From Acetobacter sp. (GTDB lineage: Bacteria > Pseudomonadota > Alphaproteobacteria > Acetobacterales > Acetobacteraceae): 42,861 nucleotides of DNA. The notes under the pieces were generated by a model. That model saw only the letters and a list, made by a program, of their open reading frames with translations, did no database searches and was not told the DNA's origin. Each line of letters starts with the position of its first letter. Within the stretch, counting starts at the first letter, position 1. Positions 8,516 to 22,296 of this stretch are shown in pieces. Position numbers and translations under genes: made by a program. The DNA lies in assembly GCA_017413025.1 (NCBI GenBank), contig JAFPVE010000033.1, positions 1-42,861 of the forward strand, given 5' to 3'.

Positions 8516-8590
8516 GTTTTGGTGAATCGTTAAACTGTAAATGGTTGAAAGTTTAAGTGTAAGTTTAGGGTGGGTAAGGAGAAGTCTTTA

Positions 8591-8956
8591 ATGCAATCGG
8601 TTTTTGCAAGTTATGCTCCAGTTCTTATTTTTGGGTGTGTGTCGGCTGTCATTGCGGCTGCTATGCTAGGAATGGCGTTAGTTTGTGGACATCAAAAACC
8701 TAATCCGGAAAAATTAACGGCGTATGAATGTGGTTTTACTGCATTTGGTGATGCGCATCGTAGATTTGATATTCGTTTTTATTTAGTTGCTATCCTTTTT
8801 ATTGTCTTTGATTTAGAAATAGCGTTTTTATTTCCGTGGGCGATTAGTTTGGGTCGAATAGGGGTATTTGGCTTTTTGTCTATGCTTCTATTTTTGATAA
8901 TACTCGGTGTTGGGTTCCTTTATGAGTGGCGTATGGGTGCTCTAGATTGGGATTAA
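8591..8956 (+). CDS. nuoA: NADH-quinone oxidoreductase subunit A
   Basis: NuoA is a small membrane subunit of complex I near the quinone site. The 121-residue product has three transmembrane segments and the family signature YECGF followed by [20 protein letters not shown] place the start at ATG 8591 because AAGGAG at 8576-8581 sits 9 bases before it; a GTG at 8570 in the same frame would add seven residues but has no comparable ribosome binding site. It opens the nuo operon, which runs to nuoN with mostly overlapping or abutting genes. Confidence 0.95.
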
Positions 8957-8966
8957 GGGGAGATAT

Positions 8967-9533
8967 GTGGTGAGCGTTGATCATAACGAGAACGCTGTTA
9001 TATGGAATCGAGAGTCTTTATCACATGGGTCAGAACAAGATGCTGTGGTACGGGGTATTACAGGTGTTTTGGCAGAAAAAGGCTTTATTATATCGAATCT
9101 TGATAAACTCGTTAATTGGGGGCGTAATGGTAGTTTATGGCCAATGACATTTGGTCTTGCTTGTTGCGCTGTGGAAATGATTCATGCTTATATGCCACGC
9201 TATGATTTGGATCGTTTTGGGATTTTTCCGCGTGGATCACCAAGACAATCTGATGTGATGATTGTGGCTGGTACCCTGACGAATAAAATGGCTCCTGCGC
9301 TGCGTCGTCTGTATGAACAAATGGCAGAACCGCGTTGGGTTATTTCCATGGGATCATGTGCGAATGGTGGAGGCTATTATCATTACTCTTATTCTGTTGT
9401 GCGTGGATGTGATCGTATTATACCCGTTGATGTTTATGTACCAGGTTGTCCACCAACGGCCGAGGCGCTACTTTATGGTATAATGTTACTTCAGAAAAAA
9501 ATCCGTCGGACGGGAACAATTCTTCGTGGCTGA
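8967..9533 (+). CDS. nuoB: NADH-quinone oxidoreductase subunit B (cluster N2)
   Basis: NuoB carries the terminal [4Fe-4S] cluster N2, which passes electrons to quinone. The four ligands are visible: the tandem Cys66-Cys67 (LACCAVE), Cys131 (GSCANGG) and Cys161 (PGCPPTAE). The 188-residue product starts at one of two adjacent GTG codons (8967 or 8970) after AAGGGGAGA; the second gives better spacing, so the start is uncertain by one residue. The gene overlaps nuoC by 8 bases. The N-terminal 35 residues before the conserved core are variable in the family. Confidence 0.96.
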
Positions 9534-10164
9534 TCTTTGTTTAAATTCTAGACGGGCTGAATCGGAAGGGTATCTTGCTTCTTTGGCATTTACTTTTCTA
9601 ACAGAACAGCCTTATGTTTCGTATGGTGCGTTGGAAAAAGGAGAATTGGTTGTACGTACTATGTCTCAGTACTTATTGCCTTTTCTGGAAATATTAAAAA
9701 ACGATCCCAAATATCGTTTTGAGCAATTAATGGATATATGTGGGGTAGATTATCCGCAGCGTGCCGATCGTTTTGATGTCGTCTATAACTTGCTTTCTGT
9801 GTCTTACAATCGACGTATTCGTGTTATCGTAACAACAGATGAGGTAATACCTGTTCCTTCTGTTCACAAATTATGGCCTTGTGCGACTTGGTGGGAACGG
9901 GAATGTTATGATTTATTTGGTGTTTTATTTTCCGGGCAACCTGATTTGCGACGTATTTTAACGGATAATGGCTTTGAAGGGCATCCTTTACGTAAGGATT
10001 TTCCTTTAACAGGTTATGAAGAAGTACGTTATGATATGGGGCATAGGCGTGTTGTGAAAGAACCCGTTTCTCTTACACAAGATTTTCGTGATTTTGACTT
10101 TGTTTCTCCATGGGAAAGTGTTTTAACTTTGCCGGGGGATGAAAAAGCCCGTGAAGTTCTGTGA
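9526..10164 (+). CDS. nuoC: NADH-quinone oxidoreductase subunit C
   Basis: NuoC is a peripheral-arm subunit that docks with NuoD and NuoB and holds no cofactor. The 212-residue product contains the 30 kDa-subunit core: [13 protein letters not shown], then the signature [12 protein letters not shown] and the [20 protein letters not shown] segment. It begins with a GTG inside the end of nuoB and ends overlapping the longest possible nuoD frame, so the genes are probably translationally coupled. NuoC and NuoD are separate here, unlike the fused NuoCD of enterobacteria. Confidence 0.95.
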
Positions 10165-10184
10165 AATGTGAAGAGGTCGCTCTG

Positions 10185-11471
10185 ATGATGATTGAGTCAC
10201 AGGATAAAGAGATGCTTTCGTTCGCCAAAATGGTGTTGCGAGAAGATATCCCTGAGAGTCTTCTCCCTGAAAAAAAGCTTCATGAACAGACAAATTGTGT
10301 TGTTGAAATTGATTCTCACGCTCTTAATTTTGGTCCCCAGCATCCTTCGGCGCACGGAGTGCTGCGATTAGTTCTTGAGTTGGAAGGGGAAATTGTTGCG
10401 CGTGCTGTTCCCCATATTGGTTTATTACATCGTGGTACGGAAAAGTTGATCGAACATAAAACCTATCAGAAAGCTTTGCCTTATTTTGATAGGCTTGATT
10501 ATGTTTCTCCGATGTGTCAGGAACATGTTTTTGCTTTGGCAACTGAAAAACTACTAGGTGTAGAGATTCCAGAGCGTGCAAAGTGGTTGCGTGTTTTATT
10601 TTCTGAGATTACGCGTATCCTGAACCATATTCTAAACTTGACAGCTATGGCATTGGATTGTGGGGCGGCTACACCTGCGTTATGGGGGTATGAAGAGCGT
10701 GAAAAATTGATGGAGTTTTATGAGGCAGCTTCAGGTGCACGGCTTCATGCTAATTATTTTCGTCCAGGAGGTGTGGCACGTGATATTCCATCAGATCTTG
10801 AGGAGAAAATTTCTCTCTGGACGCGTGATTTTCCAAAGTGGATTGATGCGCTTGAGGGACTTTTAACGGAAAATCGTATTTGGAAGCAGCGTACGGTTGG
10901 AATAGGTGTCTTTACAGCAGAGCAGGCGCTTGCATGGGGTTTTAGTGGTCCTTGTTTAAGAGCATCTGGTGTTCCTTGGGATCTTAGGCGTAATCAGCCT
11001 TATGATAATTATCATAAGGTTGAGTTTGAAGTGCCTGTTGCACGGCATGGTGATTGTTATGATCGTTATCTAATCCGCATTGCAGAAATGCGAGAGAGTG
11101 TGAAAATTATTGAGCAATGTTTAGATCAGATGCAACCAGGCGCTGTTAAAGTGCAGGATCCGAAATTTAGTCCCCCACGTCGGGCTGATATGAAACAATC
11201 AATGGAGGCTTTAATCCATCACTTTAAATTATTTAGTGAAGGTTATCACGTTCCTCATGGAGCGACTTATACAGCCGTAGAAAGCCCGAAAGGTGAGCTT
11301 GCTGTTTATCTTGTTTCTGATGGCACGAATAGACCTTATCGATGTAAAATTCGTCCGACAGGTTTTGCTCATCTTCAAGCAATAGATGAGCTTTCTCGAC
11401 GAGGGATGCTGGCTGATATGGTGGCTATTATAGGCTCGCTTGATCTTGTGTTTGGAGAAGTAGATCGATGA
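10185..11471 (+). CDS. nuoD: NADH-quinone oxidoreductase subunit D
   Basis: NuoD is the 49 kDa-type subunit lining the quinone-binding cavity. The core begins with [12 protein letters not shown], which carries the conserved histidine loop, followed by [13 protein letters not shown] and the [10 protein letters not shown] segment; the C-terminus ends in the typical [12 protein letters not shown] prefer ATG 10185 (428 residues), 8 bases after AAGAGG; a GTG at 10161 overlapping the nuoC stop gives 436 residues. Either way about 35-45 residues precede the conserved core, longer than is common for NuoD. It overlaps nuoE by 4 bases (ATGA). Confidence 0.95.
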
Positions 11472-12103
11472 ATTCTGCTTGGGTACCCCCGCCACAACCT
11501 AATGACTTTGTTTTTGATGTAGAGTCTGAATCTGAAATAGCCGTTGTGTTGAAAAAATATCCGACTGAACGTAAAGCGAGTGCTGTTATGCCTTTGCTTT
11601 ATATTGCTCAAAAGCAAATGGGCAGACGTACAGGGAGTGCTTGGATTCCTTTACAGGCTATGAATGAAATTGCTAAACGCTTAGAAATGGCACCTATTCG
11701 TGTTTACGAGGTAGCGTCTTTTTATACGATGTTTAATAAACGTCCGATTGGTCGTTATCATCTACAAGTTTGCACAACGACACCTTGTTGGTTGCGTGGA
11801 TCTGATGAAGTAGTCTCTACATGTAAACATGAGACGGGTATTAACCATTTTGGTGAAACAAGTGCAGATGGTTTGTTTACATTGACTGAAGTTGAATGTT
11901 TAGGAGCGTGTGCTAATGCACCTATTCTTCAAGTTGATGATGATTTTTATGAAGATATGGATGCTGATAGTGTGCAGAAGTTGATTGCAGAGTTACGATC
12001 CGGGAAAAAGCCTACTCCTGGTCCTAGGGTGGATCGTTTGAATTCTGCCCCAGAAGGGGGACGTAAAACGCTTTTGACTGTTGCTACTCCGTCGGATAAG
12101 TAA
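11468..12103 (+). CDS. nuoE: NADH-quinone oxidoreductase subunit E ([2Fe-2S] N1a)
   Basis: NuoE is the 24 kDa-type subunit of the NADH-oxidising module, holding the [2Fe-2S] cluster N1a. The thioredoxin-like domain shows its four ligands: Cys102 and Cys107 (VCTTTPCWL), then Cys144 and Cys148 (ECLGAC). The 211-residue product starts at the ATGA overlap with nuoD. The C-terminal 40 residues after the core ([11 protein letters not shown] onward) are a flexible tail of the kind seen in alphaproteobacterial NuoE. nuoF follows after a few bases. Confidence 0.96.
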
Positions 12104-12115
12104 GAGAGGGTGCAT

Positions 12116-13420
12116 ATGTTGCAAGATAAAGATCGGATCTTTACCAATTTGTATGGGCAGGATGATTGGCGTCTTGCAGGTGCACGTAAAAGAGGGGATT
12201 GGGATAATACAGCTGCTATTCTTGCTAAAGGGCGTGAGGCTATCATTGCGGAAGTAAAGGCTTCTGGCTTGCGTGGCCGCGGAGGTGCAGGCTTTTCTAC
12301 AGGTATGAAGTGGTCATTTATGCCTAAAAAATTTGATGCTAGACCTCACTATCTGGTGATTAACGGAGACGAGTCAGAGCCGGGTACTTGTAAAGATCGT
12401 GAAATATTACGACATGATCCGCATAAACTTATTGAAAGTGCATTAATTGCCTCATTTGCTATAGGGGCACATACTTCTTATATTTACATTAGGGGTGAGT
12501 TTTATCGTGAGGCGGAGCATCTTCAAATAGCGATTGATGAAGCCTATGAGGCAGGTTTATTAGGAAAAAATGCAGCTGGTACCGGGTGGGATTTTGATTT
12601 TTTTATTCATCGTGGTGCTGGGGCTTATATTTGTGGTGAAGAAACAGCATTATTAGAGAGTTTAGAGGGTAAAAAAGGACAGCCTCGTATGAAACCGCCT
12701 TTTCCAGCAGGAATGGGGTTATATGGATGTCCGACAACGGTTAATAATGTTGAAAGTATTGCTGTTACTTCTACGATTTTACGCCGTGGTGCCTCGTGGT
12801 TTGCAGGTCTTGGTCGTCCGAATAACACGGGTACAAAACTTATGGCAATCTCAGGACATGTGAATACGCCTTGTGTGTTTGAAGAAGAATTGGGGGTTCC
12901 GCTTAAGGATGTTATCGAAAAACATGGTGGTGGTGTTCGTGGAGGATGGGATAATTTATTAGCCGTTATTCCGGGTGGATGTTCTGTACCGTTGTTGCCA
13001 AAATCTATTTGTGAAACGGTTTTAATGGATTATGACAGTTTACGGGACGAACATTCTGCACTAGGGACGGCGTGTATGATTGTCATGGATAAATCGACAG
13101 ATATTGTCAAAGCTATTGCACGTTTCTCTAAATTTTTTAAGCACGAAAGCTGTGGTCAGTGTACGCCTTGTCGTGAGGGGACAGGATGGATGATGCGTAT
13201 TATGGATCGTATCGTTGAAGGTAGAGCAGAGGTTGAAGAGATTGATATGCTTGAGCAGATTACACATCAAATCGAAGGGCATACTATTTGTGCGTTGGGT
13301 GATGCTGCGGCATGGCCTATTCAAGGATTAATCCGGCATTTTCGTCCGGAAATGGAAGCACGTATTCAACAGTATAAAGCTAGGCAAAAAGAGACAAATT
13401 CAACACATATGTTAGGGTGA
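12116..13420 (+). CDS. nuoF: NADH-quinone oxidoreductase subunit F (FMN, NADH site)
   Basis: NuoF binds NADH and FMN and carries [4Fe-4S] cluster N3. The 434-residue product (from ATG 12116) has the FMN/NADH glycine-rich motif [10 protein letters not shown] at 54-63, the second nucleotide motif [17 protein letters not shown], and the cluster ligands Cys346, Cys349, Cys352 (SCGQCTPC) and Cys392 (HTICALGD). I chose ATG 12116 because AGAGGG at 12105-12110 is well placed; a GTG at 12110 would overlap that site. It lies between nuoE and nuoG. Confidence 0.96.
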
Positions 13421-13445
13421 TGTTGTTTCGGTGTACGAGGTAAAA

Positions 13446-15512
13446 ATGGTAAGGGTAATTGTTGATGGCACGACTATAGAGGTTCCTTCTGGTTCTAGTG
13501 TGCTTCAAGCCTGTGAAGCAGCTGGAAAGGAAATTCCTCGTTTCTGTTATCATGAGCGTTTGTCTGTTGCTGGGAATTGTCGTATGTGTCTTGTTCAGAT
13601 AGCACGTGCGCCTAAACTTGTTGCCTCATGTGGTTTTCCTGTATCAGAAGGAATGGAGGTATTTACTGATACAGAGGTGGTTCGTCGTGCTCGCCGTTCT
13701 GTCATGGAGTTTTTACTTATTAATCATCCACTTGATTGCCCAATTTGTGATCAAGGTGGCGAGTGTGATTTACAAGATCAAGCTTATGGATATGGTGCCG
13801 GAATTTCTCGCTATCGGGAGGAAAAACGTGCTGTAACTGATAAAAATTTAGGTCCTCTTATTAAAACTGTTATGACACGTTGTATTCAGTGTACACGGTG
13901 TGTTCGTTTTTGTACAGAAGTGGCGGGTACTCCTGATTTGGGTCTAGTATCACGAGGTGAAAATGCTGAAATTACCACTTATGTAGAAAAAACTCTTACA
14001 TCGGAACTCTCTGGTAATTTGATAGATGTGTGTCCTGTTGGTGCCTTGACAGCCAAACCTATAGCGTTTCGCGCGCGCGCTTGGGAATATAAAAAGACTG
14101 ATAGTATTGATGTTATGGACGCTTTGGGGACCAATATCCAAATTCATGCGCGTGCTGGGGAAGTGATGCGCATTGTTCCTCGTGTGAATGATTCTGTTAA
14201 TGAAGAATGGCTATCAGATAAAGGACGTTTTTCTTTTGATGGGTTGAAGAAGAAACGTCTTGATCATCCTTGGGTACGTGTTCACGATTCGTTAATTCCT
14301 GTACCATGGAAAGATGCTTTTATTGCTCTTGCGTGTCGTTTAAAAGACACCTCGGCTGATAAAGTTGGAGCTATTGCAGGTGATTTGTGTGATGTAGAGT
14401 GCCTTTGTGCGTTGAAAGATCTTTTTACGGCATTTGGTTCTTCCAATTTTGATTGTCGGCAAGACGGTGCATGGTATGACACAAGGAGTCGTTCGGGTTA
14501 TCTCTTTAATAGTGGTATAACAGGTATAGACCAAGCAGATGCTCTTCTTCTTGTAGGAAGTATGCCTCGGCATGAAGCGCCTGTTCTTAATGCAAGAATA
14601 CGTAGACGTTTTCTTGAGTTGGGGCGTGGAAAATTCCCAGTAGGTGTTATAGGGGATCTAGCAGCAGATTTAACATATGCGGCGGATGTTATTGGAACGG
14701 GTCCTGATGTTTTAGAGCGTTTGCTTGAAGGTAAACATCCTTTTGCTGAAGTTTTAAAAAAAGCACATAATCCTATGATTATTGTAGGACATTCTGCATT
14801 AGTTCGCTCTGATGCACCGAGAATTTATAGTTTATGTAAACAACTTGCAGAATCATGTGGAGCGTTAACACCTGAATGGCGTGCTTTGAATGTGTTACAT
14901 ACTGCGGCCTCACGTGTTGGTGGATTGGATATAGGCTTTTTGCCGGGAGAGCGGGGTCTCTCAACAAAGGCGATGTTACGTGGCGGTGTCGATATACTTT
15001 GGCTTCTTGGTGCTGATGATTTGCCGATAGATGTTATACCGGAAGAGACATTTGTCGTGTATCAAGGGCATCACGGAGATCGTGCAGCTCATCGTGCAAA
15101 TATTATTCTTCCTGCTGCCGCTTATACGGAAAAGTCGGGCACTTATGTTAATATGGCGGGGCACGTTCAACGAGCGTTTCGTGCTGTGTTTGCTCCTGGT
15201 GAAGCGCGTGAAGATTGGCGTATTATTCGTGCTTTTTCAGAGGTGATCGGCTATACATTACCCTATGATACACTTGAACAGATCCGTGATCGTATGGCTG
15301 AAGTAAACCCGGTTTTTGCTATTGATGGAAAGAAAGGATCTTCTAATCTTTCTCAACATTCAGTGACTTCTGTTATAGATGAGTCCATGACATTGCTAGA
15401 TGAACCCTTTCAACCCATTATACAAGATTATTATCTAACAAATTCCATAAGTCGTGCTAGTCAGATCATGGCTGAGTGTTCAGCAGTATATAGATTGCGT
15501 GCGATGGAGTAA
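13446..15512 (+). CDS. nuoG: NADH-quinone oxidoreductase subunit G
   Basis: NuoG is the 75 kDa-type subunit with several iron-sulfur clusters linking NuoF to the Q module. The N-terminal domain shows the [2Fe-2S] ligands Cys34, Cys45, Cys48 and Cys62, the His94-Cys98-Cys101-Cys107 set for the N5 cluster, and CIQCTRC at 146-152 with a later Cys in [12 protein letters not shown] for N4. The remainder is the molybdopterin-oxidoreductase-like domain without cofactor use. I take ATG 13446 (688 residues, start MVRVIVDG) because it matches the usual family start and has ACGAGG upstream; GTG 13431 would add five residues. Confidence 0.95.
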
Positions 15513-15516
15513 AAAT

Positions 15517-16545
15517 ATGGAACAGTTTTTCTATCATACGCTTATAGGGCAGATTTGTTTAATGTTGCTAGAGACATTGGCAGTATTAGTGCCGTTGTTA
15601 ATTGCTGTAGCTTATTTGACTTATATGGAGCGTAAGGTAATGGCTGCTATGCAATGGCGACGGGGTCCTAATGTTAATGGTCCCTTTGGTTTGTTGCAAG
15701 CTTTTGCTGACGCGATTAAACTCATTATGAAAGAAACAGTAATTCCTGCTGGGTCCAATAGAGCTTTGTTTTTATTCGCGCCGTTTTTGACTTTTTCGCT
15801 TGCTATGGCAGCTTGGGCAGTAATTCCAACAGGGAATGGTTTAGCAGTTGCCAATATTAATGTAGGTATTCTTTATCTTTTAGCGATTTCTTCTTTAGGG
15901 GTTTATGGTATTTTATTTGCAGGGTGGGCATCTAACTCAAAATATGCTCTTTTAGGCGGCTTGCGTTCAGCGGCGCAGATGATTTCTTATGAAGTGTCTA
16001 TAGGCGTTGTTATTATTTCTGTGTTGTTAGCTGTTGGTAGTTTAAATCTTAATGATATAGTTTTAGCTCAGCGGCATGTGTGGTTTTGTCTCCCTATGTT
16101 TCCAATGTTTGTGGTTTTCTTTATTTCAGCATTGGCGGAGACAAATCGGGCACCGTTTGATCTTCCTGAAGGTGAGAGTGAGCTTGTAGCAGGTTTCTTT
16201 GTTGAATATTCATCTCTTGCGTTTGGTTTGTTTTTTCTTGGTGAGTATGCCAACATGATTTTGATGTCTGCTATGGTGAGTATATTGTTTTTAGGGGGGT
16301 GGTTACCCCCACTAGAGATGGCACCTTTAACGTGGATACCTGGACCACTATGGCTGGTTTTTAAGATTATATTTTGTTTGTTTGTATTTATTTGGGTGCG
16401 TGTGACTTTTCCGCGTTATCGTTATGACCAGTTGATGCGTTTGGGATGGAAGGTTTTTTTACCTTTTTCTTTACTTTGGATGGTAGGAACAGCAGGTTTT
16501 CTGATGGCAATGGGTTGGTTACCGCATGCAGGGGGTGTGATCTAA
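15517..16545 (+). CDS. nuoH: NADH-quinone oxidoreductase subunit H
   Basis: NuoH forms the membrane side of the quinone chamber and joins the two arms of complex I. The 342-residue product has eight or so transmembrane helices and the diagnostic loop [18 protein letters not shown] near the N-terminus, plus the acidic loop [21 protein letters not shown] that lines the E-channel. The frame is open further upstream, but ATG 15517 is the start: it lies 5 bases after the nuoG stop with GGAG 7 bases before it. The stop overlaps the nuoI start (TAATG). Confidence 0.96.
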
Positions 16546-17033
16546 TGGCTGCCTTAGGTACGACTCTACGATCTTTTCTGCTAAAAGAATTATTGGCAGG
16601 TATGGCTTCAACTTTTAGAATGATGTTTCGTCCTAAAGCAACGTTGAATTATCCTTACGAAAAAGGACCGTTGTCACATCGATTTCGTGGTGAGCATGCT
16701 TTGCGTCGTTATCCTAATGGAGAAGAGCGTTGTATTGCTTGTAAATTATGTGAGGCTACATGTCCTGCTGAAGCTATTACAATTGAAGCACAAGAACGTG
16801 ATGACGGCTCTCGCCGTACAGTTCGGTATGATATTGATATGACGAGATGTATCTATTGTGGTTTGTGCGAAGAAGCTTGTCCTGTAGATGCGATTGTTGA
16901 GGGTCCAAATTACGAGTTTGCAACAGAAACACGTGAAGAACTTATGTATGATAAGGAGAAGCTTTTAGCTAATGGAGATCGATGGGAGGCTTTGTTGGCG
17001 CGAAGGCTTAAACTTGATGTACAATATCGTTGA
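16545..17033 (+). CDS. nuoI: NADH-quinone oxidoreductase subunit I (two [4Fe-4S])
   Basis: NuoI is the ferredoxin-like subunit carrying clusters N6a and N6b on the way to N2. Both motifs are complete in the 162-residue product: Cys63, Cys66, Cys69 and Cys73 ([12 protein letters not shown]), and Cys102, Cys105, Cys108 and Cys112 ([12 protein letters not shown]). The frame extends upstream inside nuoH, but the ATG at 16545, which shares a base with the nuoH stop, gives the usual family length. It is followed by nuoJ. Confidence 0.96.
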
Positions 17034-17072
17034 TTGGATAAAAGTGATGTTAAGGCAAAAGGTTGCTTCTCT

Positions 17073-17798
17073 ATGATAGCACAGTTGTTTTTTTATATTT
17101 TTGTTGGGATATTACTGTTTTCCGCTGCTATGGTTATTACGGTACGTAATCCTGTGCATTCTATTTTGTTTCTTATTTTAGGCTTTTTTAATGCTGCAGG
17201 TCTTTTTCTGATTGCGGGTGCCGAGTTTTTAGCAATGCTTCTTATTATTGTTTATGTTGGTGCAATAGCGGTATTGTTTTTATTCGTCGTTATGATGTTA
17301 GATATTGATTTTAGCAGTTTGCGTGAAGGGGCTCAAAAACATGCGGCTTTAGGGCTTTGTTTGGGGTTGGTGCTTTTACTCGAGTTGTGGATGGCGTTGA
17401 GTCATTGGAAGGTGCTACCCACAGATTCTAATGCGTCATTAACAACAAATGTTCAGCATTTGACAAATACAGAAGCACTTGGGACACTTGTGTATACGCA
17501 TTATGTTCTGTTATTTCAAGCATGTGGTATTGTGTTGTTGGTTGCGATGATGGGGGCGATTACATTAACACTGCGTGATCATTCGACAAGTCGTCGTCAG
17601 AATGTCGCACGTCAGCATGTTCGCAAAGCGGCAGATACATTGGAGCTTACAACAGTGCAACTTGGTGAAAGCGTTATAGAGCATGGTGGCGTTTTGCGGC
17701 CTAAAGGTTCATATAATGAGATTGCTGCACCAGGTTCTTATGGTCTTGATATTAAAGAATCTGAATACCTACAAAATAAAGAGGAGAAAGGGGAATGA
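17073..17798 (+). CDS. nuoJ: NADH-quinone oxidoreductase subunit J
   Basis: NuoJ is a five-helix membrane subunit next to NuoA, NuoK and NuoH. The product shows the conserved helix-3 region with [26 protein letters not shown] split over two motifs ([16 protein letters not shown] and [13 protein letters not shown]), including the pi-bulge segment central to coupling. I place the start at ATG 17073 (241 residues, [10 protein letters not shown]); an in-frame TTG at 17034 adds 13 polar residues and lacks a ribosome binding site. The C-terminal 60 residues are hydrophilic and longer than in many NuoJ proteins. It overlaps nuoK (ATGA). Confidence 0.93.
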
Positions 17799-18118
17799 AC
17801 CCAACTCTTGCAGCTATTGGACTTGGTCCGTATTTGTTTGTTAGCGCTGTTCTGTTGGTGTTAGGCGTGTTAGGTATTTTTTTGAACAGGAAGAACGTAA
17901 TTATTTTGCTAATGGCATTAGAGTTGATTTTATTGTCCGCAAATCTTAACCTTATAGCGTTTTCTTCTGCTTTAGGGGATTTGTCTGGTCAGGTTATGGT
18001 TCTTTTCGTTTTGACTATTGCAGCGGCAGAAGCTGCTATTGGTCTTGCCATTGTCACCGTTTATTTCCGAAACCGTGGTTCTATTCAAGTTGAAGATATT
18101 ACGATGATGAAAGGCTGA
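17795..18118 (+). CDS. nuoK: NADH-quinone oxidoreductase subunit K
   Basis: NuoK is a three-helix membrane subunit related to MrpC and contributes two buried glutamates to the proton path. The 107-residue product has these at Glu43 ([14 protein letters not shown]) and Glu79 ([12 protein letters not shown]), with the conserved RKN loop at 32-34. The start overlaps the nuoJ stop and follows GAGGAGAAAGGGG, a strong ribosome binding site. The gene is normal and leads into nuoL 7 bases after its stop. Confidence 0.97.
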
Positions 18119-18125
18119 ACGTGCC

Positions 18126-20066
18126 ATGCAGACCGATTCTATATTGTTCACAACAGCGGTTCTTATGCCATTGGTAGGTTCTGTTATCGCTGGTCTTTTT
18201 GGTCGTTTAATTGGGGATATCTTATCACAGGTTGTGACGTTATTGTGCATGACTGTCGCGAGTTTGTGTGGTTTTATTGCATTGTACGATGCTTGGAAGG
18301 CTGGCTTTCCTCATCTTACGGTACATCTGGCAGAATGGCTACATGCAGGTGGCTTCAATGCGGCATGGACCTTGCGCTTTGATACCCTTTCTGTGAGTAT
18401 GGCGTCCATGGTTTTGTGTGTGTCTTTGCTTGTGCATTTTTACAGCGTTGGGTACATGAGCCATGAGACGATGCCAACCTATCGATTCTTTTCATATCTT
18501 TCTTTGTTTACATTTGCCATGCTCATGTTGGCCTCTTCTAATAACCTTATTCAGCTCTTTTTTGGATGGGAGGGTGTTGGTCTTCTCAGTTATTTACTTG
18601 TAGGTTATTGGTATGATCGTCCTTCTGCTTTGGCTGCGGCTGTGAAGGCTTTTGTTGTTAATCGTGTGGCAGATTTGTTTTTTATCGTTGGTATCGGATT
18701 GGTGTATGTTTTATTTCATTCGGTACAATATGATACCATTTTCGCCGCAGTGCCTCATGTATTGACGACGTCTTATACAATGTGTGGTATATCTTTTCGT
18801 ATGCTTGAAGTTGTCTGTTTCTTGCTTTTTGTTGGAGCAATGGGTAAGTCAGCACAGCTGTTTTTGCATACATGGTTGCCGGATGCAATGGAGGGTCCTA
18901 CACCTGTTTCTGCGTTGATTCACGCTGCGACCATGGTTACTGCAGGTGTTTTTCTTATGGCAAGGATGTCTCCACTGTTAGAATATGCACCTAACACACG
19001 TATCATTGTCCTTATTATTGGTGCGTCGACATGTTTCTTTGCCGCTTCTGTAGGTATGGTGCAACCTGATATTAAACGAACAATAGCTTATTCGACCTGT
19101 TCTCAGCTTGGCTACATGTTTGCTGCAGTGGGGGTTGGTGCTTACCAAATTGCAATGTTCCATTTAACGACACATGCTTTTTTTAAGGCGTTGTTGTTTC
19201 TCTCAGCAGGTTCTGTTATCCATGCTATGCATGATGAGCAGAATATGTTTCGTATGGGGGGGTTATGGAAAAAAATGCCACTAACTTATATCTCCATGTG
19301 GGCTGGGAGTCTAGCTCTTGCTGGTGTGTTTCCCTTTTCTGGGTATTGGTCAAAAGATGCGATACTTGGTGCTTTATGGGAGTCAGGGACAACGTGGAGT
19401 CATTACGGTTGGATATTAGGTACTAGTACAGCGTTTTTAACGGCATTTTATAGTTGGCGTTTGATTTTTCTGGTATTTCATGGTCGTGCGGCTGATGAGC
19501 ATGCTTTTAGTCAAGCTCATGAAAGTCCTGCAATTATGACAGTTCCCTTACTGATCCTTTCGCTTGGTGCTGCTGTGGTAGGCTTTTTGCTTGCACCGTT
19601 TTATATCGGGAAATATCAGTTGGCTTTTTGGAACGGATCTATTTTTAATGCTGTGACTGACAAGATTATGGAACAATTCGATCATACTTCGACACTCATT
19701 TCGCTCTTACCTTCTGTAGCGGGTCTGTCTGGTATTGCTTTAGCTGCTTGGTTTTATATTATTAGCCCTGAAATACCAAAAGCTTTGGCAAAAGCAACTG
19801 GTCCTTTGTATACTTTCCTGCTTAAAAAATGGTATTTCGATGAGCTTTATGACTTCATTTTTGTTCGTCCATATGCCGTTTTAGCTCGCCTTCTATGGAA
19901 ACGAGGTGATGATACTGTCGTAAAAGGTTTGTCTGTAGAAGCTGCTCGTGCAACATTTTTAAGTGCATTGGGGGCTATTAGATTGCAGACGGGCTCTATA
20001 GCAACATATGCTTTTACTATATTGGCAGGTTTGTTGTTCTTTTTGACCGTAGCTCTATGTAGATAG
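18126..20066 (+). CDS. nuoL: NADH-quinone oxidoreductase subunit L
   Basis: NuoL is the distal antiporter-like subunit of the complex I membrane arm. The 646-residue product is full length. It has the channel glutamate in FFGWEGVGLLSYLL, the lysine in GAMGKSAQLFLHTWLPDAMEGPTPVSALIHAATMVTAG (split: GKSAQLF and HTWLPDAMEGPTP), the second-half segment IKRTIAYSTCSQLGYM, and the C-terminal extension with KKWYFDELYDF that forms the lateral helix. It is therefore a single NuoL, not an L-M fusion. The next gene should be nuoM, but the sequence goes to nuoN after 51 bases. Confidence 0.96.
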   Translation: MQTDSILFTTAVLMPLVGSVIAGLFGRLIGDILSQVVTLLCMTVASLCGFIALYDAWKAGFPHLTVHLAEWLHAGGFNAAWTLRFDTLSVSMASMVLCVSLLVHFYSVGYMSHETMPTYRFFSYLSLFTFAMLMLASSNNLIQLFFGWEGVGLLSYLLVGYWYDRPSALAAAVKAFVVNRVADLFFIVGIGLVYVLFHSVQYDTIFAAVPHVLTTSYTMCGISFRMLEVVCFLLFVGAMGKSAQLFLHTWLPDAMEGPTPVSALIHAATMVTAGVFLMARMSPLLEYAPNTRIIVLIIGASTCFFAASVGMVQPDIKRTIAYSTCSQLGYMFAAVGVGAYQIAMFHLTTHAFFKALLFLSAGSVIHAMHDEQNMFRMGGLWKKMPLTYISMWAGSLALAGVFPFSGYWSKDAILGALWESGTTWSHYGWILGTSTAFLTAFYSWRLIFLVFHGRAADEHAFSQAHESPAIMTVPLLILSLGAAVVGFLLAPFYIGKYQLAFWNGSIFNAVTDKIMEQFDHTSTLISLLPSVAGLSGIALAAWFYIISPEIPKALAKATGPLYTFLLKKWYFDELYDFIFVRPYAVLARLLWKRGDDTVVKGLSVEAARATFLSALGAIRLQTGSIATYAFTILAGLLFFLTVALCR

Positions 20067-20076
20067 AGGGTATGTG

Positions 20077-20118
20077 ATGTGTAATATTCTTTCCTTCTTT
20101 TTACGGAGTGCTACCTAA
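20077..20118 (+). pseudogene. 13-codon open frame in the place of nuoM; possible deletion remnant
   Basis: Between nuoL and nuoN there is a short frame from ATG 20077 to a TAA at 20116-20118. It is preceded by GAGGG (20066-20070, 6 bases before the ATG) and its stop overlaps the nuoN ATG as TAATG, the same junction type used at nuoH-nuoI. The encoded peptide is MCNILSFFLRSAT. This is what an in-frame deletion of nuoM that kept its start and its coupled stop might leave. The peptide is too short to prove descent from NuoM; it may be chance. Confidence 0.25.
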
Positions 20119-21563
20119 TGGCTGTACCTTCTTTATTAAACTGGGCTGTTGCTCTTCCTGAGATTGCACTCGCTTGTATGGGGAGCGTTATTCTTGTTTT
20201 GGGTGTTTTTTTGCAGAGGGGAAAAAGGTTTTCTTCTGTCGTTTTGTTGAGTGTTGCTGCTCTTATCTTCACAGCATTTTTAGTACTTTTAGCACCGAGT
20301 GGCGTAGGGTATTCAGGGACATTTGTTAATGATACTTTTGCTAGATTTATGAATCTCCTCGTTATTGTTGGTGCCGGATGTGCAATTATTTTAAGTGTTA
20401 GTTATCGCGTTGATAAAAATACACCACTCCCTTTTGAAATTCCTGTGCTGATGCTTTTTTCAACACTTGGTGCGATGTTGATGGTGTCTTCTATCAATCT
20501 TATGGCTTTGTTTGTTGGATTAGAGCTTTCCTCGCTTTCAATTTATATTTTATGTGCGGCAGGGCGTGAGAATCTTTTATCGTCTGAAGCCGGATTAAAA
20601 TACTTTATTTTGGGTTCGTTTGCGTCAGGGTTACTGTTATACGGTGTTTCTCTTGTATATGGTTATACAGGGACAATGGAGTATTCGGGTTTGATCAGTG
20701 CTATACGGACAGTTGATACAGTACCTATGGGGTTGGTTGTGGGGATTGTATTTATTTTAGTCGGGCTGTGTTTTAAGCTTTCCATTGTACCATTTCACAT
20801 GTGGACTCCTGATGTTTACCAAGGATCGTTGACACCCGTAACGGCTTATATGTCGGTAGCACCTAAATTTGCAGCGTTTGCTTTATTGTTACGTGTTATG
20901 TTGGAATCGTTTGGTACTATGGCGCCTCGGTGGGCGTTGTTGTTAGAAGCTGTTTCTATGCTATCTATGGTTTATGGTGCTCTTGCTGCTATTCCACAAA
21001 GCAATATTAAACGTCTTATGGCGTATTCTTCTATTGGGCATATGGGATATGCCATGATGGGGTTGGTTGCTGATTCCGTCTGGGGTGTGCAGGCAACACT
21101 CATTTATTTAGTGGCTTATCTTTTTATGAACTCTGGTGCTTTTGCGTGTATTAGTGCGATGCGTAAAAAAGGATATGAAGTTTTTGATATTGCTGATCTT
21201 GCAGGACTATCTAAAACTGACCCAGGTATGGCAGCAGCATTGGCGATTTTTATGTTTAGTATGGCGGGTGTACCCCCTTTAGCAGGTTTTTTTGGTAAAT
21301 TTGTTGTTTTTGCTGCTGCTTGGCAATCAGGTTTTTATGGATTGGTTTTTGTGGCTGTGATCTCAAGTGTTATTGGGGCTTATTATTACTTACGTGTTGT
21401 TAAAGTGATGTATTTTGATACGCCTGTACAAGCATTTGATCATCCTGCGCCGAGTTTGGTACTTGTTTTTGGTAGTATGAGTATTGTAACTGTTTTGTTT
21501 GTTGCATTCCTTGGACCTTTAATGACGGTCGCGCAACAGGCTGCTGTAGCTTTAGCAGGTTAA
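20118..21563 (+). CDS. nuoN: NADH-quinone oxidoreductase subunit N
   Basis: NuoN is the antiporter-like subunit nearest the peripheral arm. The 481-residue product is identified by FVGLELSSLSIYIL with the channel glutamate, and by the NuoN-specific stretch FKLSIVPFHMWTPDVYQG followed by TPVTAYMSVAPK, which differs from the corresponding NuoM and NuoL motifs. The later IKRLMAYSSIGHMGYA and AGVPPLAGFFGKF segments are also present. The ATG has CGGAG 8 bases upstream. It follows nuoL directly, without nuoM, and birA starts 5 bases after its stop. Confidence 0.95.
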   Translation: MAVPSLLNWAVALPEIALACMGSVILVLGVFLQRGKRFSSVVLLSVAALIFTAFLVLLAPSGVGYSGTFVNDTFARFMNLLVIVGAGCAIILSVSYRVDKNTPLPFEIPVLMLFSTLGAMLMVSSINLMALFVGLELSSLSIYILCAAGRENLLSSEAGLKYFILGSFASGLLLYGVSLVYGYTGTMEYSGLISAIRTVDTVPMGLVVGIVFILVGLCFKLSIVPFHMWTPDVYQGSLTPVTAYMSVAPKFAAFALLLRVMLESFGTMAPRWALLLEAVSMLSMVYGALAAIPQSNIKRLMAYSSIGHMGYAMMGLVADSVWGVQATLIYLVAYLFMNSGAFACISAMRKKGYEVFDIADLAGLSKTDPGMAAALAIFMFSMAGVPPLAGFFGKFVVFAAAWQSGFYGLVFVAVISSVIGAYYYLRVVKVMYFDTPVQAFDHPAPSLVLVFGSMSIVTVLFVAFLGPLMTVAQQAAVALAG

Positions 21564-21567
21564 TCTT

Positions 21568-22296
21568 GTGTGGCCATTGGAATGTTATGAGGAGTTACCA
21601 TCAACTTCTGATTATTGCCTGAATTATATTAGACAGGGTGGAACAGTAGAACATGCTGTTCTTGCAAGAAAACAGACATGTGGGCGAGGAAGCCGCGGTA
21701 GGCGATGGGTTGATGCAGGGCAGGCTTTAGCGTTATCTGTTATTTTGAAATCTGATAAATTTGATCAAGAGGGTGTTTTAGGCGGTTGGCCATTCGTTGC
21801 ATCGCTGGCTTTTTACGAAGGATTGCTGAAAATTGCTCCCTGTGCAGCTGGTCGTTTGTTGATTAAGTGGCCTAATGATATCCTACTTGATGGTTGTAAA
21901 CTTGGCGGTATTTTAATTGAAAAGGAAGCATCTTTTGTGGTGGTTGGTTTCGGGGCAAATTTAATCAATGTTCCTTATGAGAGAGATATAGGTTATAAAG
22001 CCTCTAACCTTGGAATGTGTGGTGTTATTCCAGATGTTATTGACGTTGCTAAGGCTATTTTAGAGAGTTTAGCATTTTATCGTGATGTTTGGTTGATAAA
22101 AGGTTTTGAAGAAATACGTCATGCTTGGCTTATGCGTGCACACGTGTTGGGGACGTTTTTAATGGTAAAAAATGAAAATATTCATAAAGAGGGGTATTTT
22201 TCTGGTATTACACCAGAAGGTTGTTTGTTGCTTGAGACAGTAATGGGCATGGAAACTATCGTGACAGGAAGTGTTTTACTGCCTGATAGGAGGTAA
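21568..22296 (+). CDS. birA: Biotin--[acetyl-CoA-carboxylase] ligase, without DNA-binding domain
   Basis: This enzyme activates biotin as biotinyl-AMP and attaches it to the carrier protein of acetyl-CoA carboxylase. The 242-residue product has the catalytic-domain loop [12 protein letters not shown] that binds biotinyl-AMP, and [19 protein letters not shown] with the catalytic lysine, then a small SH3-like C-terminal domain. There is no N-terminal helix-turn-helix, so it is a monofunctional group I ligase and not a repressor. The start is GTG 21568, 5 bases after the nuoN stop. nuo-birA-coaX-rnj is a conserved alphaproteobacterial order, so it is probably read from the nuo transcript. Confidence 0.92.

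Follow-up and report, generated by a model that had tools for sequence, protein, structure and literature searches.

nuoM lies apart from the nuo operon, beside mutL, in an Acetobacter genome and in many sampled relatives

What has become of nuoM in a nuo operon that passes directly from nuoL to nuoN? The original prediction, made for a window of 42,861 bases of Acetobacter sp. DNA (the whole stretch that was analysed), was that nuoA through nuoL and nuoN are all present and that nuoN follows nuoL after 51 bases with no nuoM between them. Both statements were borne out, as open reading frames (ORFs) and NCBIfam matches identified the 13 genes (Table 1). The prediction left two alternatives, namely a nuoM that has moved elsewhere or a complex I with a shortened membrane arm. 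We favor a reading, to which we assign a probability of about 0.95, in which nuoM moved once, NuoM is supplied by a transcript of its own, and the product is an ordinary 14-subunit complex I.

The nuo operon and its nuoL-nuoN junction

Table 1. Features of the nuo locus (window coordinates) and the lone nuoM (genome:contig coordinates)
Feature	Coordinates	Strand	Basis
nuoA to nuoK block, in order	8570-18118	+	ORFs and NCBIfam matches
nuoA	8570-8956	+	ORF, family match (NCBIfam)
nuoB	8967-9533	+	ORF, NCBIfam match
nuoC	9526-10164	+	ORF, NCBIfam match; separate from nuoD
nuoD	10161-11471	+	ORF, NCBIfam match; separate from nuoC
nuoE	11468-12103	+	ORF, NCBIfam match
nuoF	12110-13420	+	ORF, NCBIfam match
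nuoG	13431-15512	+	ORF, NCBIfam match
nuoH	15454-16545	+	ORF, NCBIfam match
nuoI	16446-17033	+	ORF, NCBIfam match
nuoJ	17034-17798	+	ORF, NCBIfam match
nuoK	17795-18118	+	ORF, NCBIfam match
nuoL, 646 aa	18126-20066	+	NF005141 765 bits, TIGR01974 764 bits
nuoL-nuoN spacer, 51 bases	20067-20117	+	Sequence; site of nuoM in relatives with the ancestral order
nuoN, 481 aa	20118-21563	+	NF004440 556 bits, TIGR01770 466 bits
birA-like gene after nuoN	21568-22296	+	tblastn of ORF against outgroup loci
Lone nuoM, 511 aa	G000:C26:22252-23787 (minus strand; converted from L003 coordinates)		PF00361, TIGR01972

The TAG stop codon of nuoL ends at position 20066 and the ATG start codon of nuoN is at position 20118. 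The spacer contains a ribosome-binding-like ACGGAG, and by eye no remnant of nuoM was visible in its 51 bases. For both NuoL and NuoN the best match is to the protein's own family and spans nearly the whole length (765 and 556 bits), so neither is a fusion, which agrees with the original prediction. NuoA scored 114 bits against a cut-off of 155 for the one model listed, yet it was covered end to end. The longest ORFs of nuoH and nuoI (window positions 15454-17033) start inside the preceding gene; judging from the family matches, which begin at residues 26 and 37, the true starts are probably further downstream.

The ORF that follows nuoN is one that we take to be birA. By tblastn it had matches in loci L065-L069, L071, L072, L074, L078, and L080, and in outgroup loci with nuoM at its operon position, nuoN is likewise followed by a similar gene. 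The order is nuoL-nuoM-nuoN-birA in L065-L069, L071, and L072, as far as the DNA of each locus extends. Compared with the alphaproteobacterial nuoA-N operon in which nuoC and nuoD are separate, the window has the same order from nuoA to nuoL and then nuoN, with the birA-like gene after nuoN, but has no nuoM between nuoL and nuoN.

A lone nuoM elsewhere in the genome

The genome assembly that was searched comprises 1,464,704 bases (1.46 Mb) in 45 contigs and is 96.5% complete. The antiporter-core profile PF00361 (E up to 0.001) had three matches in this assembly, which were nuoL, nuoN, and a lone nuoM on contig C26, and the reading of a complex I without a nuoM gene anywhere in the genome thus does not hold for the organism's own assembly. 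A full nuoM elsewhere in the genome, the outcome that had been named as reducing the original prediction to a relocation, is thus what the search found. The 511-aa ORF is stop-free, and its product scored 548.5 bits against NDH_I_M (TIGR01972; cut-off 263.8, E = 1.3e-164) over positions 1-484 of the 486-position profile, while missing the threshold of the stricter model NF004499 (564 vs 585 bits). Among solved structures, the closest in sequence is chain 8qby_M, a subunit M (3.4e-125). The gene does not occupy the usual, though non-defining, position between nuoL and nuoN; it lies on the same strand as mutL, which encodes a 630-aa MutL and is 146 bases upstream, and is followed by a convergent gene for a 670-aa GyrB/ParE-type protein. 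nuoM is relocated, not lost, and with 13 genes in the window and nuoM on contig C26 the genome has all 14 complex I subunit genes. Complex I of this bacterium is probably complete, since nuoM sits elsewhere in the genome beside a DNA-repair gene, mutL, as it does in relatives.

The lone NuoM was aligned to E. coli NuoM, and positions are given in E. coli numbering. It retains E144, K234, K265, H322, H348, and E407, and the same six residues are kept in NuoM from all 18 genomes in which the split was found in the family sample described below (split genomes). In the sections of PMC9271201 consulted, E144 forms an ion pair with K234, and the proton path consists of K265, H322, and E407; the lone protein has all five of these residues. 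A foreign origin of nuoM was considered on the basis of composition and rejected, as the gene (GC 0.43, GC3 0.37) resembles the membrane genes of the operon, with GC and GC3 values of 0.42 and 0.35 for nuoL, 0.41 and 0.30 for nuoN, and 0.40 and 0.36 for nuoK. The adjoining mutL has a GC3 of 0.27.

Extent of the split among relatives

Named loci, family, genus, and class were sampled separately. Of 117 confirmed named loci, the 80 retained had been ranked by similarity to this NuoM, so that the set leans toward its kin. Within the locus DNA, no match to nuoK, nuoL, or nuoN was near nuoM in 61 of these 80, some of which are short (e.g., L020, L024, L031), and nuoL and/or nuoN stood beside nuoM in the other 19. 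The 61 lone-nuoM loci include Acetobacter, Gluconacetobacter, Komagataeibacter, Novacetimonas, and Lichenicoccus. A mutL match ends less than 250 bases upstream of nuoM in 48 of the 61, lies further off in 5, and is absent from the locus DNA in 8. For the table of flanking genes the longest ORF was taken each time, a rule that in GC-rich genomes selects ORFs on the wrong strand, and the table was used only where otherwise borne out.

Within the family, nuoM was searched in 150 genomes and matched in 135. The positions of nuoL and nuoN were checked in 67 of the 150, an uneven, hand-picked sample that leaves out the other 83 and consists mostly of genomes in which the nuoM match is weaker, absent, or duplicated (though not all such genomes) together with seven high scorers. 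nuoL and nuoN were adjacent and nuoM unlinked in 18 of the 67; three others (G011, G097, G099) have nuoL-M-N plus an extra lone nuoM, and 12 of the 67 had no nuoM match. In the genus sample, all 41 genomes have a lone nuoM and nuoL is followed directly by nuoN in 39, the profile matches being 58-492 bases apart and two of the 39 (G243 and G261) having partial matches. The two exceptions are G268, in which nuoL and nuoN are on different contigs, and G270, in which neither was found. The comparison of this junction across related Acetobacteraceae that was proposed with the original prediction yielded nuoL-nuoN without nuoM in 18/67 family and 39/41 genus genomes. Two side observations come from the genus sample. 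G270 is 99% complete and has a lone nuoM (G270:C63:12135-13574) with no nuoL or nuoN match, which is either an assembly gap or a stranded nuoM, and 10 of the 41 genomes have, in addition to the split set, another complete nuoL-M-N set (e.g., G250:C1:3170948-3175796).

In the class sample of 86 genomes, 76 had nuoM and 75 had both nuoL and nuoM. By a tally that rests on these two genes, with the NuoN search left out, they were adjacent in 73 of the 75, the exceptions being the genome of the window and G040, which belongs to the same family. nuoM matches without nuoL beside them occurred in G190 and G185 (second copies) and in G200 (no nuoL match at threshold). One contig of G185 (G185:C34:8001-16664) carries second matches to nuoN, nuoL, and nuoM that contain 2, 5, and 3 in-frame TGA codons, respectively, and is perhaps a contaminant, such as mitochondrial DNA, in which TGA encodes an amino acid. 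For the acetic-acid-bacterium lineage, the lone nuoM seems to be a stable marker.

In print, the arrangement is known for Acetobacter pasteurianus, for which the literature on complex I genes names strains SKU1108, 386B, and NBRC 3283. The gene numbers printed in the portion of PMC5158111 that we consulted place the operon at APT_01737-APT_01725 (13 numbers) and nuoM apart at APT_00690, an arrangement like that of the window in which we saw no substantial difference, although the genome of the window is much smaller (1.46 Mb) than that of A. pasteurianus. For strain 386B, the relevant part of PMC3751514 gives complex I as APA386B_556-567 plus APA386B_2247, which is unnamed there and would correspond to nuoM. 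According to the sections of PMC12361115 at hand, most clades of the complex I tree mix split and single-cluster gene sets; the split sets likewise have nuo genes that are not all clustered, but in the present case nuoM is the only gene that stands apart, and many relatives have it at the same site. The tree in the available part of PMC4596401 was built on nuoHIJKLN and leaves out nuoM without a stated reason, and the main text of PMC10715153 contains no occurrence of nuoM. Our literature search, which covered papers in part and placed supplementary files outside its scope, found no paper that describes the split as lineage-wide. As far as these sources go, the nuoM split is ordinary operon splitting that is in print for one species, A. 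pasteurianus, and the only addition here is its extent across the sampled relatives.

History of nuoM and the make-up of complex I

Trees of 44 NuoM, 41 NuoL, and 41 NuoN sequences each placed the 18 split genomes on one side of a branch, with support of 97/89 for NuoM and 100/100 for NuoL and for NuoN. A second set of trees added seven further named loci to serve as outgroups (five of them lie within the spread of the family), with E. coli-type rows and G029/G113 removed. The split genomes were again grouped in the NuoM tree, with support (84/84) that was lower than without the outgroups, and the sister group of the split clade was the same five genomes (G068, G135, G023, G093, and G147) for NuoM (100/97) and for NuoL plus NuoN (88/82). 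Because the three proteins group the split genomes and agree on the sister group, one ancestral move of nuoM with vertical inheritance fits the trees best.

Several genomes carry further nuoM genes. G097 has a normal nuoL-M-N set and a lone split-type nuoM (G097:C1:813154-814587, which is L133:6001-7434, and G097:C1:1471774-1473219), the lone gene being near one that matches the catalytic domain of Glu/Gln-tRNA synthetase. The lone extra NuoM proteins of G011 (G011:C1:993077-994525, L132) and G099 (G099:C1:2218110-2219552, L134) form a long-branched pair in the tree, and asparagine replaces the central lysine in both. The same replacement is present in the operonic NuoM of G053 (G053:C36:6663-8102) and G126 (G126:C70:116630-118072).

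One possibility is that the operon lost its nuoM and that another nuoM, either taken up from a foreign source or a duplicate that had diverged, took its role, in which case the gene beside mutL would not be the same gene moved. In favor of this, G097 carries operonic and split-type copies, G011 and G099 carry extra lone copies from another branch, and a long branch leads to the split NuoM clade. We nevertheless regard replacement as unlikely, as the sister group of the split clade is the same for NuoM as for NuoL plus NuoN, and as the lone NuoM of G097 falls beside the split clade (100/100) while its own NuoL and NuoN lie elsewhere in the tree, so that this copy seems to have been transferred from near the split lineage. 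The move may plausibly have come about by duplication of nuoM in the ancestor and later loss of the operonic copy.

The remaining alternatives concern the complex itself and the assembly. A shortened complex I, in which NuoL joins NuoN directly and fewer protons are pumped, would account for the absence of nuoM at the window junction, which is all that speaks for it; a complete nuoM is present in the genome, its key residues are kept in 18/18 split genomes, few conserved columns of NuoL (2/228) and NuoN (3/126) are switched, and the NuoM protein of a relative is reported in PMC10742644, as far as that source was available. We consider such a complex highly improbable, and of the two original alternatives the moved gene is right and the shortened arm is not supported, given an intact gene, retained key residues, and a detected protein in a relative. 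An assembly error, with nuoM really between nuoL and nuoN and dropped or misplaced, might be suspected in an assembly of 45 contigs. The same junction in 18/67 family and 39/41 genus genomes makes this very unlikely, to the point of being negligible; the junction and the lone nuoM recur in other genomes, including the single-contig G013 and G264, and the A. pasteurianus gene numbers in the consulted part of PMC5158111 agree. It is also conceivable, at long odds, that the separation of nuoM from the operon lets acetic acid bacteria set the supply of NuoM independently, so that under some conditions part of their complex I is poor in NuoM or pumps at an altered ratio.

Sequence constraint on the three subunits was compared in the split genomes. 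Among columns conserved in canonical rows, the split rows had 5 switched and 22 loosened of 146 in NuoM (27/146), 2 switched and 15 loosened of 228 in NuoL (17/228), and 3 switched and 10 loosened of 126 in NuoN (13/126), and conserved columns were thus loosened or changed more often in NuoM than in NuoL or NuoN. Remodeled NuoL and NuoN surfaces were rejected, with 2/228 and 3/126 conserved columns switched vs 5/146 in NuoM. On a fixed tree, NuoM was raised about 2.5-fold relative to NuoL plus NuoN, measured against the tree-wide ratio, on the stem of the split clade. We treat this faster evolution as a weak functional signal, since the stem ranks third of the 63 longer branches and the two that exceed it belong to the backbone and lie outside the split clade. 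The stem rate and the column changes still allow the constraint on NuoM to have changed somewhat.

How might NuoM reach the complex from its separate gene? A consensus scan of the mutL-nuoM spacer found no promoter-like site on the nuoM strand and one on the opposite strand; the nearest site on the nuoM strand is within the end of mutL. The 2.4 kb around nuoM contained 11 promoter-like sites vs 5.9 (sd 2.2) expected, a result to which we attach no weight, and the region before nuoA contained 3 vs 2.8 expected. In the portion of the A. pasteurianus proteome paper PMC10742644 that we consulted, NuoM is HN.1610 and the operon proteins are HN.3342-3354, numbers that seem to follow genome order. 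The table there gives NuoM ratios of 0.62 and 0.33 in lag phase and 2.16 and 1.78 in exponential phase; NuoB-NuoI shift the same way. The corresponding text mentions NuoM for the 6% lag-phase set alone, and the protein is in the table but not in the text lists of those down at 3% and up in exponential phase.

Under the favored reading, a single departure of nuoM from the nuo operon would have taken place in an ancestor of those Acetobacteraceae that make up the acetic-acid-bacterium lineage, and the gene would now sit just downstream of mutL in most loci seen. The other 13 nuo genes would have closed up, leaving nuoN with its own ribosome-binding-like site. NuoM from the separate transcript would enter the membrane and join the arm between NuoN and NuoL as usual, and the product would be an ordinary 14-subunit proton-pumping complex I. 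For this organism in particular, we infer a promoter for nuoM, assembly of the complex, and normal pumping.

A gene that is absent from its operon need not mean a missing subunit, and a false lead is thereby removed. For annotators of acetic acid bacteria, the neighborhood of mutL is the place to check before complex I is scored as incomplete. Were the supply of NuoM truly independent of the other subunits, the group would offer a natural test of the share of NuoM in proton pumping.
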